The notes under the pieces: generated by a model
The model's database searches: none
What the model saw: the letters and a program-made list of their open reading frames with translations, nothing else
Told to the model about the DNA's origin: nothing
Shown: in pieces, positions 12,957 through 18,150 of the stretch
Layout: every line of letters starts with the position of its first letter
Numbering within the stretch: position 1 is the stretch's first letter
Source of the DNA: Spinacia oleracea
Lineage: Eukaryota; Streptophyta; Magnoliopsida; Caryophyllales; Amaranthaceae
Direction: 5' to 3'
Assembly (NCBI RefSeq): GCF_020520425.1
Contig: NC_079487.1
Coordinates: forward strand, 111,324,141-111,388,140
DNA length: 64,000 bases
Position numbers and translations under genes: made by a program

Positions 12957-14391
12957 TTTCGTTTTTTTTTAATAATTATGATTGGCAAACGAGCTAAGTT
13001 ATTATCCACCGACCTCTTAAAGACTTAAATGTATGGTTTGCCTAATGAAGTTGGTTTAAGTCTTAGTTCTCAATGAAATGATATTAGATACTAATCACGT
13101 TGTGAGATTGATTTGTAGTTGTACCTTTCATGCAATTTTTTTTTTCCCAAGTACAAGTACAATTCGTTGTATCTTGTGCGTTGGTATAACTAAAAACATT
13201 TCTTGTTGATGTATTTGCTTGAAGCTTAGCCTTAGTTTGTAAGGTACAAATTGTTATGCAGTTCGATTGGAACACCTACGTGAGTGTGAAGGGATGACCT
13301 CCTTCTATGAAAAACTGTGTATGTTTTACTAGAGCGCTCACTAGAATTCCAAGGTATTCTGGGCTATGTATGACAAACAATGTCTTTCGTGTACGAATGT
13401 CGTGTCGTGTATGGATTTCATTGAGTGACTGTATAATTTGCCTTCCATGAAATATCATATACATCGCAGAATTGATCATGCTCCTATGGCAAGGTATGTG
13501 TTGTTGGGTCCCTTCTATTATCTAGGAGTTCAATCCTTTGGACACTCTCTACATCGTTGAACACCCCACTCCACTATGTGTTAGTTCAAACCTTTAGGAT
13601 ACTACCATTTAAGTATCGAGCTATTCATTTACTGCTCTGGTTTCTAGGTCTCATGTCCGTATGCATTAGTTGGCAATTGTTGGAAATATAATGCATTCGC
13701 AGGTTTTTTAAAGTTTGGGCCCAGTCGGACTAAATGACCCAGTGGACTGGTAGGACTTGAATCCACCTTGTTTAGTTTCCCTTTCTTGTGAAACATATAT
13801 ATACTCGGATACTCCCTATTATTCTTTTCCTGGAATAATATAATATTCAAATTCATGGAGAGATAGAAATACCAAAACATAAACCCTAAATTTCATTAGA
13901 TATCTGAGCAGTTCTTGAGCAATTTCACATTTTGAATTCGGGTGCACGGATTTGAAGGAGAGTTGGGTTAACCTTGGGGGGCATTCGTCACTTGAAAACC
14001 TGTACCCTTAGTGGCGAAATTTGCTTCTAAGTCAGTGGCCTCCATACCACGACACAACTATTTTCCTATGAGATTGGTAATCGGATAACATCCTATCCTG
14101 TTGTTAATCATAAATTCTTGATTCGACGGTTACTTTTCCTACGATTATTTGATTAGAAAATGCAACTATTTAATAAGTTTTTGTAATTAAATACGAAGTA
14201 TATAACTGGCCAAAGTTATGTATTGTTATTTTTGCAACATAAATACTAGCTACACGAAATTTGGGCTATGCAATATTCAATTGATATCTTATTGTTTCCT
14301 AGCCCATTATTGACGGGCCACAAATCTACTGCGCAAAATTAAGCCCAAGGGTTTAGCCCTTCCCTATTTTCGGACTCCGGCAAAAACGAAT
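12957..14391. other. Intergenic; nothing firm
   Basis: No recognisable gene. Several short minus-strand open frames (13084-13880) have no family resemblance. A TGTTGGAAATATAATG stretch at about 13677 looks like the start of a Copia-type LTR, but no partner end or target duplication was found. Confidence 0.4.
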
Positions 14392-14399
14392 TTCTGGAA
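14392..14399 (+). promoter_or_regulatory. Heat-shock-element core cut off from the sHSP promoter
   Basis: TTCTGGAA is a TTCnnGAA heat-shock-factor dimer site, with further GAA half sites just beside it (14387-14389 and 14407-14409). Taking out the MULE 14417-17356 and one target duplication would place it about 95 bp upstream of the sHSP TATA box at 17445. With the insertion the distance is about 3 kb. The HSE call is inferred from motif and position. Confidence 0.5.
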
Positions 14400-14416
14400 A
14401 GTACAAGAACGTCCTA

Positions 14417-17356
14417 ATTATTAATATATAGATAGGTATCCACCTATCTATATATGCATATGCAACAATACAGCGTCGTTTCATCATTTAATTGGCACGC
14501 GCGAAGCACATGCTTCTTACCAGCAACACGTATAAAACTGCTCCTGACGTCATTGGAAGTGAATTCGACATTTTCTCTCTCCTCAACATCTCGCCATTTT
14601 CTCTCTCATCAAACCTCCCACTCTCTCTCATCAAATCGCCCACTCTCTCACTTCAAACCGCCGATTTCGCTCTATAAAACCTCGATTTGCAGTTCAAAAG
14701 CGCAATTCAGTGACAAAACTGAACATCGAGGCAGTTTCGGAAAATTCGAAACCCTAAAAATGGATCTCCGTGAGGAAGTGAAGCTCAGTAGAACAAAAAT
14801 TACATTAAATAGAGGAAGAACGCAAAAGTAAGTAATGTACATAATTTATCGCGTTTTCCAGATTTTAGTTTGATTTTTGTTCATAATTTTTCGTGTTTTC
14901 CAGATTTTAATTTGATTTTTGTTCATAATTTTTCGCATTTTCCAGAAAAAAGAACAATCGAGTGGAATCGAGTATTGCGGATGCTGTATTGTAAGTGAAT
15001 TTAAGTGTTTAAACATTTTTTACTCAATTTAAAAGTTGTATGTGAATTTACGTTTTGAAATTTATAATGTTCATAATTTTTGACCAAATGTTCATTATCC
15101 TTTACTATAAGATCTGAAGTGTCCCTGCCTAGATATTATCATTGTTCTAGAGCGTGTGGAAACATGAAATATTTTTTTGAAAATATTCATGTTCACAATA
15201 TGAAACAACATGTTCAAAATGTGAAACATCATGTTCAAATAGGTTATAATTTTTTTTGAAATATTCATGTTCTAAATGTGAAACATAATGTTCATAATGT
15301 TCAGATTAGCTGTTGAAATATTCATGTTCAAAATGTAAAACAACATGTTCAAATTTTTTTATAAATTTGGTTTTAATGTTTTGCACATGTTCATATATGT
15401 TATAAAGTTACAATGAATATGAATATTACGTTTTTATAATTGAACAACACCTATAAAGAATTGAACATGAGAATAAAAAGGAAATATACCTTGGCCAATA
15501 ATGTTCAAACTCAGCAACAGTATCACAGCACTTCAGAAGATAACTAAACAACTCAGTAAAACCTTTCATAGCTCTCTGCGTAGCAATATTCTTCTTTGAA
15601 TTCTCTCCAAGATGCCATGTACACAAACGGTGACTAGCACCCGGAAACACATCCCTAATAGCAGCAGCAATGGCAGGAGCTTGATCTGTCATTATAGTTT
15701 GAGGTATTCCACCACCCATTCATCGCAAAAAAGATTCAAACAACCAAATAAAAGAAGGAATACGCTAATTAACCAGGAACCCCAAACCAAAAACAACATT
15801 ATTGCAATGATGATTCATTCCAACAAATGGTGCACATATCATATCATACCGATTTGTCCGGTATGTCGTATCAAACACCAATAAATCACCAAAATATTCA
15901 TAATCCCTTTTCATCCTTCCATCCCTCCAAAAGAAACTAATTAAATGTCCATGTTCATCTAACTCAAAATCATAATAAAAATCACTCTCAGAAGATTGTC
16001 TTTGAGCAAAGTACCTAATTAATTAACTGATTACAGTCTTTACCATCAAGTTTCATTGCCTTTTCAGCAGCCAAAGCGTTGTATGCATCAGCAGTAATAA
16101 ACCCTAAATTAGGAGATCCTCCCACTTCTTTTCTCATTGCACGAAGCAAATCAGACACTCTACAACCATTGGCTTTCATTGAACTAAGATACTTGAGCTG
16201 CTCCCCTGTAATATCTCTTTGAGACCTAAGCAAGTATCTCTTGCCAGCGGGAATCATATGATGATTGTGAGTCATGTTATGCCTCACCACAGTCCAAACA
16301 CCTCCAAACCTGTACGCAAGTCAGACCTCTCATACTTCCTCAACGTTTCCTTCTTGACATCTTTAAAGCCAGAATTAGAACAAAGAAATCTGCGCATAAT
16401 CCACAAACCAGTTCTACGACTAGTCCTAATTAATCTCTTACGAATACTGAAACCCTTCCTAAATGCATAATCATTATACATTTCATAAGCTTCATCATCA
16501 CTCCTAACTTCTTTTAACATTAATTCTGATGCAGATGCTTTTTCAACCACTACTACTTCTTTAGACACTGTTAAAAAATATAGGGAAAAGATGATGTTCA
16601 ATTTAGATTGTACGATGTTCATATATTAAAACCAAATGTTCATAATCATAAACTTCAATAAATGTGTTGCAATAATAACATAATCACAACGAAAAAAACA
16701 TTCACAAAAGTAAATAACAAAAGTCATGTTCATAATATAGGTGAATAATGTTCAAAATCATCAAAAACAACAAGTGTAAATTTTCCAAAAAATTGTAAAA
16801 TCTGAAAATATACAAAATATTAAAAAACGATAAAAAGTTCATCAAACTAAAACCTAATACAACTATAAACGTAAAAAAACAAATATAAAAAGAATTTTAA
16901 TCACAATTGAATCTAATCACAATTGAAAATCAAAATCGCAAAATCAGAATCGCAAAATCAAAATCGCAAAACAAAAGAAAAACAAAAAAAATAATTGAAT
17001 CAAACTCACATTGCTTCATCAACGTAGAGAGTATTGAGGAATTATCAGCATTAATTTCAGCAAGTATAGCATCAATGGAAGCTTTGCTAGTAAAATCATT
17101 CACAGAGCATAATGTTGAAACAGGGGAAGCCATGGAGATTGAAATCAGCAAAATTGAAAGAGAAAAACTGCCTAATGGCTTTAGAAGAGGAGAGAGAAAA
17201 TTTTGAATTGATTTCAGCGTGATCAGCGTGATTACAAAGCAAAAGGAAAATAGGAAACAAATCTGGCGCTAAGAAAAGAAGGTGAGATTGATGCAAAAAA
17301 CGCCAAAACGACGTCGTTGAAAGTCCTATGCATAGGTATCCAGCCAAAAATTTGGG
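14417..17356 (-). mobile_element. FAR1/FRS-type MULE with decayed transposase
   Basis: The 2.94-kb element is bounded by a perfect 12-bp direct repeat AAGAACGTCCTA (14405-14416 and 17357-17368), the right size class for a Mutator-like duplication. The ends are only loosely inverted (ACCTAT, GCATA and CGTCGTTT shared). Inside, on the minus strand, is a FAR1-class transposase remnant. Non-coding parts at about 15060-15420 and 16600-16860 carry many ATGTTCA repeats. It sits between the distal heat-shock motif and the TATA box of the sHSP gene. Confidence 0.85.
15426..17151 (-). pseudogene. FAR1-related MULE transposase, truncated and frameshifted
   Basis: Exon 1 starts at 17151 or at the Met at 17133 (MASPVSTLC) and ends at a GTGAG donor near 17011. 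The next exon begins after the AACAG acceptor near 16570. It carries the FAR1 DNA-binding (WRKY-GCM1-like) region: SDDEAYEMYNDYAFRKGFSI, then SNSGF, then VVRHNMTHNHHM. A frameshift separates the last two parts near 16300. Next come the linker KRYLLRSQRDIT, an in-frame stop near 16015, and the MULE domain with YFGDLLVFDTTYRTNRYD (first catalytic Asp) and IMTDQAPAIAAAI (second Asp), with further stops between. Similarity ends after EFEHYWPRY, so the catalytic Glu and the SWIM zinc finger are missing. Full proteins are 600-800 residues. It cannot encode active transposase. Confidence 0.85.
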
Positions 17357-17444
17357 AAGAACGTCCTACACAGTCCTCTGTTTTCTTCGACTAGAAACAG
17401 ATAGAATGACCGGTAAAACTATTTCCAGATACTTCATTCAATCA

Positions 17445-17450
17445 TATAAA
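17445..17450 (+). promoter_or_regulatory. TATA box of the sHSP gene
   Basis: TATAAA 125 bp upstream of the sHSP ATG, leaving a leader of about 95 bp, usual for class I small HSP genes. A gapped heat-shock-like site (TTC, 5 bp, GAA) lies at about 17387-17398, between the MULE right end and the TATA. Confidence 0.6.
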
Positions 17451-17574
17451 AATATATCAATACCATCTTCCCTTCATCATCAACCAAACACACAAATTTA
17501 CAACAGGATAAAATACTTGTCAATTTCAGAATTCAATTACTTTTAGTTCAGCTATTCATATAATCCGATCGACA

Positions 17575-18002
17575 ATGTCGCTAATCCCAAGCTTCTTCGG
17601 AAACCGACGCAGCAACATTTTCGACATATGGGATCCTCTCCAGTCTCTCTCTTCTAATCACGACACTTCCGCTTTTGCCAACGCCCGAATTGACTGGAAG
17701 GAGACACCGGAGGCGCACGTGTTCAAGGCAGATTTACCCGGATTGAAGAAGGATGAGGTGAAGGTTGAGGTGGAAGACGGGAAGGTGCTTCAGATCAGTG
17801 GAGAGAGAAGTAGGGAACAAGAGGAGAAGCATGACAGGTGGCATCGTATTGAACGGAGTTCTGGAAAGTTCTTAAGGAGGTTTAGGCTGCCGGAGAATGC
17901 AAAGATGGAGGAGATTAAGGCGAATATGGAGAATCTGTCACTGTTCCTAAAATGGAAGAGAAGAAGCCTGAGGTCAAGTCCATTGACATCTCTGCTGCCT
18001 AA
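17575..18002 (+). pseudogene. Class I small heat-shock protein (HSP20) with late frameshift
   Basis: The start [20 protein letters not shown] is the class I cytosolic sHSP signature. Small HSPs are ATP-independent holdase chaperones that form 12-mers. The alpha-crystallin domain is normal up to residue 120: [20 protein letters not shown], then [27 protein letters not shown] and IKANMEN. There, at about 17934-17940, bases corresponding to a GVLSV-type stretch (about ten) are missing and the frame changes. The expected ending ([20 protein letters not shown], stop at 18000-18002) is intact in another frame, while the original frame runs to 18231. The product would lack the last beta strands and the C-terminal IxI-type motif needed for oligomers. 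Usual length is about 155-160. A sequence error could mimic this, but the damaged promoter favours a real pseudogene. Confidence 0.88.
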
Positions 18003-18150
18003 ATGGCTGCTATTGAATTATAATAAAATGATGAATGTCAAATTCGTGTACTTCTCTTTTGTTTGTATGTTAATTACAGTGTGTACAAATTATCGTGTGG
18101 ATTCGTGTCCATTGCACAAATGTAAGAGACCAAGAGCTAATGAGTATAAT

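Follow-up and report, generated by a model that had tools for sequence, protein, structure and literature searches.

Evidence for a defective MULE at the 3′ edge of the distal heat-shock element in the promoter of a frameshifted class I small heat-shock protein gene of spinach

Described systems and the spinach locus

Insertions of P elements and other transposons recur in the heat-shock promoters of Drosophila, and in fly hsp70 promoters the physical disruption itself, whichever DNA of similar length causes it, is said to be what counts (PMC2793543). In rice, a MULE is located ∼0.4 kb upstream of OsPsbS1, within ∼2.7 kb of extra promoter sequence that is carried by japonica with few exceptions and is missing from most indica, and a transient assay showed higher activity for the japonica-type promoter (PMC4178011). 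Among plant MULEs without terminal inverted repeats (TIRs), the KI-MULE of Arabidopsis and families from grapevine carry a Ulp1-like gene, Ulp1 sequences are likewise reported from some Jittery-like (FAR1-related) families, and the grapevine MULEs are described as always producing a target-site duplication of 9 nt, the length given as typical for plant MULEs (PMC2528002). For a chloroplast-sHSP promoter, that of wheat sHSP26, heat-shock elements (HSEs) alone were reported to be insufficient (PMC3548792).

In the 64-kb stretch of spinach DNA analyzed here (the window; C1:111324141-111388140), a heat-shock promoter is likewise disrupted by a transposon, but as a single MULE insertion rather than a recurrent one, and the gene is also frameshifted, unlike the Drosophila cases (PMC2793543). 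As at OsPsbS1, the element is a MULE within a promoter; however, whereas the japonica-type promoter is the more active one (PMC4178011), the spinach insertion displaced an HSE and the gene is broken. The spinach MULE resembles KI-MULE and the grapevine families in lacking TIRs, and in the one long copy examined a Ulp1-like match lies opposite the transposase strand; this match, however, scores below the Pfam cut-off and its part of the element is missing from the window copy, and the duplication is 10 bp at nine of nine sites, in contrast to the 9 nt given as typical for plant MULEs (PMC2528002).

We consider it highly probable that the promoter of a class I small heat-shock protein (sHSP) gene was split by a defective MULE at the 3′ edge of its distal HSE, with a proximal HSE kept and the gene itself frameshifted. 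The event is ordinary in kind and of a known class, and the locus is a clear, well-documented example. A literature screen by title and abstract opening found no prior case of a transposon insertion in a plant sHSP promoter, which is not a claim that none exists. What the locus provides is a base-resolved transposon insertion at an HSE edge in such a promoter, with the proximal HSE left standing, and, in addition, a MULE family whose target duplication was 10 bp at each of the nine sites examined.

The insertion site and the MULE family

The original prediction, that a MULE lies between the HSE and TATA box of an sHSP promoter, was confirmed; the HSE in question is the strongest of this class I sHSP gene. 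The element and its surroundings comprise the following features (window coordinates):

14405..14414, unstranded: target-site duplication, left copy AAGAACGTCC, containing HSE units 4 and 5
14415..17356, minus (transposase strand): MULE, internally deleted and without TIR; family copies terminate at identical bases
14419..14460, unstranded: left terminal hairpin of the MULE, with 19-nt arms (89% complementary) and a 4-nt loop
15369..15404, unstranded: internal-deletion joint zone; family matches end at about element position 952 and restart at 988
15426..15914, minus: remnants of the MULE transposase core (PF10551), spread over two open frames, by profile match
16284..16622, minus: FAR1-type DNA-binding domain of the transposase (PF03101)
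17357..17366, unstranded: target-site duplication, right copy

The element had been placed at 14417–17356, between two copies of a perfect 12-bp repeat taken as its target duplication. The repeat, AAGAACGTCCTA, is present at 14405–14416 and 17357–17368 and the right end was correct, but only 10 bp of it are target duplication, and the left end, as fixed by family copies that start with TA, is 14415; the ends set by these other copies give an extent of 14415–17356, or 2,942 bp. A genome search with the element returned 70 matches, and 40 of 376 candidates were scored. Of ten loci handled as left side, L048 (match from element position 33) and L049 (internal match) were excluded, and of 19 right-side loci, 11 were excluded because they had no left end among the loci taken or fell short of the end; two possible pairs, L029 with C2:37290781 and L037 with C3:117482706, stand outside the duplication count.

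In the eight other left/right pairs that were resolved, the left end is TA followed by ATTATTAAT (starting TAATTATTAATATATAGATAG), regardless of which bases follow the duplication on the right side (TG, TA, TG, TA, TA, CA, AA, and GG). A 12-bp target duplication was thus ruled out, the terminal TA being part of the left end in all eight of these pairs; 12 bp was perceived at first because the right flank begins with TA at four of the nine sites, the window locus included. With the TA assigned to the element, the duplication is 10 bp at every one of the nine sites, within the 8–11 bp range given for MULEs (PMC6446971), and is perfect at eight of them, among them the window locus, and 8/10 at the other; a control with mispaired ends yielded at most 7/10 matches over 72 combinations. 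One right end of the nine, in L026, reads TTTGTA as opposed to TTTGGG elsewhere, and was counted against the best explanation.

The window copy contains a FAR1 domain (PF03101, 3.7e-11, 44 bits; cut-off 28.1) and was identified as a MULE by two matches to the transposase core (PF10551, 4.4e-9 and 2.2e-7; 37.1 and 31.7 bits; cut-off 27.6). Long TIRs are common in MULEs, yet non-TIR MULEs are recognized (PMC6446971, PMC2528002); in the window copy no TIR is present, an ungapped comparison of the first 40 bases with the last 40 in reverse complement giving 18 matches out of 40. The inner part of the one long copy examined, L076, encodes a SWIM zinc finger (21.4 bits; cut-off 19.6) in the same orientation as the transposase and, on the opposite strand, a plant mobile domain (PMD-like gene; E 3e-6, under the curated cut-off) and a weak Ulp1-like match in one open frame (PF02902, E 0.005, 17.1 bits; cut-off 20.7). 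FAR1 in the window copy and SWIM in L076 together correspond to the Jittery/FAR1 type, in which FAR1 is N-terminal and SWIM C-terminal (PMC6446971).

The part with SWIM, PMD, and Ulp1 is missing from the window copy. Other copies contain the left part (element positions 1–952) and the right part (988–2940) of the window copy apart from each other; in the eight resolved pairs, ∼11 to 69 kb separate the outer ends (the longest may contain nested insertions), and no second copy spanning the internal-deletion joint was found among 30 scored candidates. Relative to L021, the window copy has also gained 4 bp near 16016 and lost 31 bp near 16306, both in the transposase region. Because the L076-type inner part is missing and the transposase region carries these further indels, the window element is taken, from its sequence, as a non-autonomous, defective, and internally deleted FAR1-type MULE.

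At the right end, a hairpin (CCTATGCACGC, loop, GCGTGCATAGG) was seen by eye in L024, L028, L030, and L032, with near versions in L021–L023, L025, and L029; at 17325–17336 the window copy has 16 bp fewer than the hairpin copies, with the palindrome CCTATGCATAGG remaining. On the other side of the insertion, an apparent remnant of the 3′ part of a retrotransposon occupies ∼13261–14146 and ends ∼245 bp upstream of the HSE. Its piece 13869–14146 is LTR-like and has no partner inside the window; among the 40 genomic matches listed for it, about 10 same-strand pairs are 4.6–5.7 kb apart.

Heat-shock elements of the split promoter and its paralogs

HSEs were scanned for as alternating GAA/TTC units with 5-bp spacing. 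The promoter features on the two sides of the MULE are:

14392..14414, unstranded: distal five-unit HSE TTCtgGAAagTACaaGAAcgTCC, three perfect units and two of 2/3 (13/15)
17423..17435, unstranded: retained TATA-proximal HSE TTCcaGATacTTC, three units (8/9), from the HSE scan
17445..17453, plus: TATA box TATAAAAAT, 130 bp upstream of the ATG

The heat-shock motif TTCTGGAA, expected directly to the left of the MULE, is found at 14392–14399 as part of the distal HSE, which is the sole five-unit site of 13/15 in the window and its best. When the 300-bp empty-site promoter was Markov-shuffled 3000 times, three shuffles reached a score of 13, and none of 1195 overlapping 300-bp tiles elsewhere did. 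The insertion lies at the edge of this HSE, since the target duplication consists of its final two units; because the duplication copied these two units, the left side has a whole HSE and the right side a two-unit stub. The TATA box is where it had been predicted, 76 bp past the right 12-bp repeat, and its distance from the ATG compares with 107–144 bp for the TATA motifs of five intact paralogs. From the distal HSE to the TATA box is now 3,030 bp, versus 78 bp in the empty site. The proximal HSE is separated from the TATA box by 9 bp; it reaches p = 0.022 within the 45 bp that precede this box, but it is weak, and its value of 0.17 over 300 bp, which is not significant, was held against the best explanation. 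A new HSE carried in by the MULE was rejected as a candidate, with no five-unit site above 10/15 within 500 bp upstream of the ATG (0.58 over 300 bp).

Six paralogs (L002–L007) were tested at the empty site. The L003 promoter aligns over it, including TTCTGGAA, with a local score of 40 (shuffle mean 18.5; 0/1000 shuffles), and that of L007 with a score of 32 (1/1000 shuffles). Two results tell against the best explanation, namely gaps of 3 and 8 bp near the insertion point in the L003 alignment and, for the other four of the six paralogs, alignments that were not significant at 0.05 (L002, 0.17; L004, 0.053; L005, 0.11; L006, 0.116). Aligning all promoters with MAFFT yielded no information and BLAST gave no match under E 0.23, leaving the empty-site local alignment as the only informative one.

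The prediction had also described a heat-shock motif ∼95 bp from the TATA box as the usual class I sHSP arrangement. The distal position is indeed usual in this group, the empty-site HSE ending 78 bp before the TATA box and the distal HSEs of L002, L003 (weak), L004, and L007 ending 83–102 bp before theirs, but a proximal HSE is usual too. Both HSEs are strong in L004 (distal 13/15, proximal 14/15) and L007 (distal 12/15, proximal 13/15), whereas L002 combines a strong distal HSE (12/15) with a weak proximal one (10/15), and L003 a weak distal HSE (four units, 9/12) with a strong proximal one (12/15). The intact L005 (C1:112330449-112333862) has no good HSE, reaching 8/15 within 300 bp and at best 10/15, at −366, in 500 bp, and judging by this promoter may not be heat-inducible. 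L006, with its TATA region apparently deleted, was excluded from the HSE scan.

The frameshifted gene and the history of the allele

Downstream of the split promoter are:

17575..18003, plus: frameshifted gene for a class I small heat-shock protein; span up to the original-frame stop
17934..17935, plus: point of a 10-bp deletion relative to five intact paralogs

The product matches HSP20 (PF00011, 2.5e-22), and its best solved relatives are wheat Hsp16.9B (1gme, 1.3e-45) and an 18.1 kDa class I protein (5ds2, 9.4e-44), versus 5e-20 for the class II protein 5ds1, which places the alpha-crystallin domain nearest to cytosolic class I proteins. The five intact paralogs, likewise class I genes, have open frames of 160–165 codons and are located at 112.24–112.39 Mb on C1, ∼1 Mb away. 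In comparison with them, a frame change anticipated at ∼17934–17940 in the alpha-crystallin domain proved to be the 10-bp deletion at 17934/17935, and the gene also has in-frame deletions, in the N-terminal arm. Past the deletion, the alternative frame is open through to the expected stop. The shifted frame specifies 218 residues, with 98 others substituted after residue 120, and the frame change removes the C-terminal I-x-I/V tail as well as the last strand. Both have a structural role in class I sHSPs when complete, and the frameshifted protein is probably non-functional.

Over 138 shared codons, dN/dS was 0.06 against L002 and 0.10 against L003. On the branch of the window gene, dN was 0.033–0.044 and dS 0.20–0.61 (imprecise, with an outgroup dS of 1.0 to 2.4); this dN exceeds that of L002 (0.017–0.028) and is like that of L003 (0.038–0.046). 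The low dN/dS points to long purifying selection, and the damage therefore looks recent; the gene was probably selected for long and then broken late. In the right part of the element, 21 of 1853 compared columns are private substitutions (1.1%), within the 0.2–2.0% of eight near relatives, and at an assumed rate of 6–7e-9 per site and year a rough upper bound for the insertion age would be 1.6–1.9 million years. The insertion and the 10-bp deletion both look young relative to the gene, and judging by the substitution counts either may have come first.

In the explanation that we favor, the promoter of an ancestral class I sHSP gene would have comprised a TATA box and two HSEs, the proximal one weaker than the distal one, and a defective MULE, presumably mobilized in trans, would have integrated at the 3′ edge of the distal HSE. 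Displacement of the strongest HSF site to 3,030 bp would probably have reduced heat induction rather than abolished it; weakened induction is the safer prediction because the weaker proximal HSE remains, and the promoter does not appear to be simply severed from heat control. By analogy with the disruption result for fly hsp70, some loss of induction at the spinach locus is plausible. The 10-bp deletion late in the alpha-crystallin domain would have shifted the frame and removed the last strand and the tail, a loss perhaps tolerable given the five intact class I paralogs ∼1 Mb away.

This explanation is compatible with either order of the two lesions, not just with insertion followed by loss of induction and decay as first proposed. 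One particular order is quite possible, although we rate it somewhat below an even chance: the coding deletion, or a loss of need for the gene, may have come first, with the MULE arriving later in the promoter of a dead gene. This history is set apart from the favored explanation by its order only; the sequence fits either order, the 1.1% of private substitutions permits a recent insertion, and nothing specific opposes it, except that the deletion also looks recent, the remaining frame being intact. It is rather unlikely that the gene is still well heat-inducible through the proximal HSE, producing the altered 218-residue protein or RNA only, with an insertion that was near-neutral for transcription. 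The proximal HSE is untouched at 9 bp from the TATA box, and L003, L004, and L007 have strong HSEs near the same position, but the site in the window has just three units (8/9), the strongest HSE is 3 kb distant, and over the 500 bp preceding the ATG the MULE supplies no five-unit HSE that scores above 10/15.

That the insertion adjoins the best HSE in the window might suggest that the MULE family targets HSEs, in a manner reminiscent of the buildup of P elements in heat-shock promoters of Drosophila, but such targeting appears extremely unlikely and was unsupported at the eight other insertion sites. None of these has a five-unit HSE of at least 12/15 within 40 bp (best 10/15; background of 467 80-mers, mean 8.45), and a TATA motif lies within 150 bp at only one of the eight. 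That the frameshift is an assembly error is very improbable, as assembly errors would not usually take the form of a 10-bp gap away from any homopolymer.

Spinach has been called a heat-sensitive crop (PMC4746569). If the insertion proves to be polymorphic among spinach accessions, it could serve to test the distal and proximal HSEs for their separate roles. That spinach holds a natural allele series, the defective, internally deleted MULE uncoupling the distal from the proximal HSE with a loss of heat induction that is graded and not all-or-none, is speculative and on balance unlikely, but if true it would be a natural test of the contribution of each HSE. A second broken class I sHSP copy is L006 (C1:109251033-109254317), which has a TGA within its frame; there, L002-like promoter sequence enters mid-gene, and a deletion seems to have removed the TATA region together with the start codon and the N-terminus.
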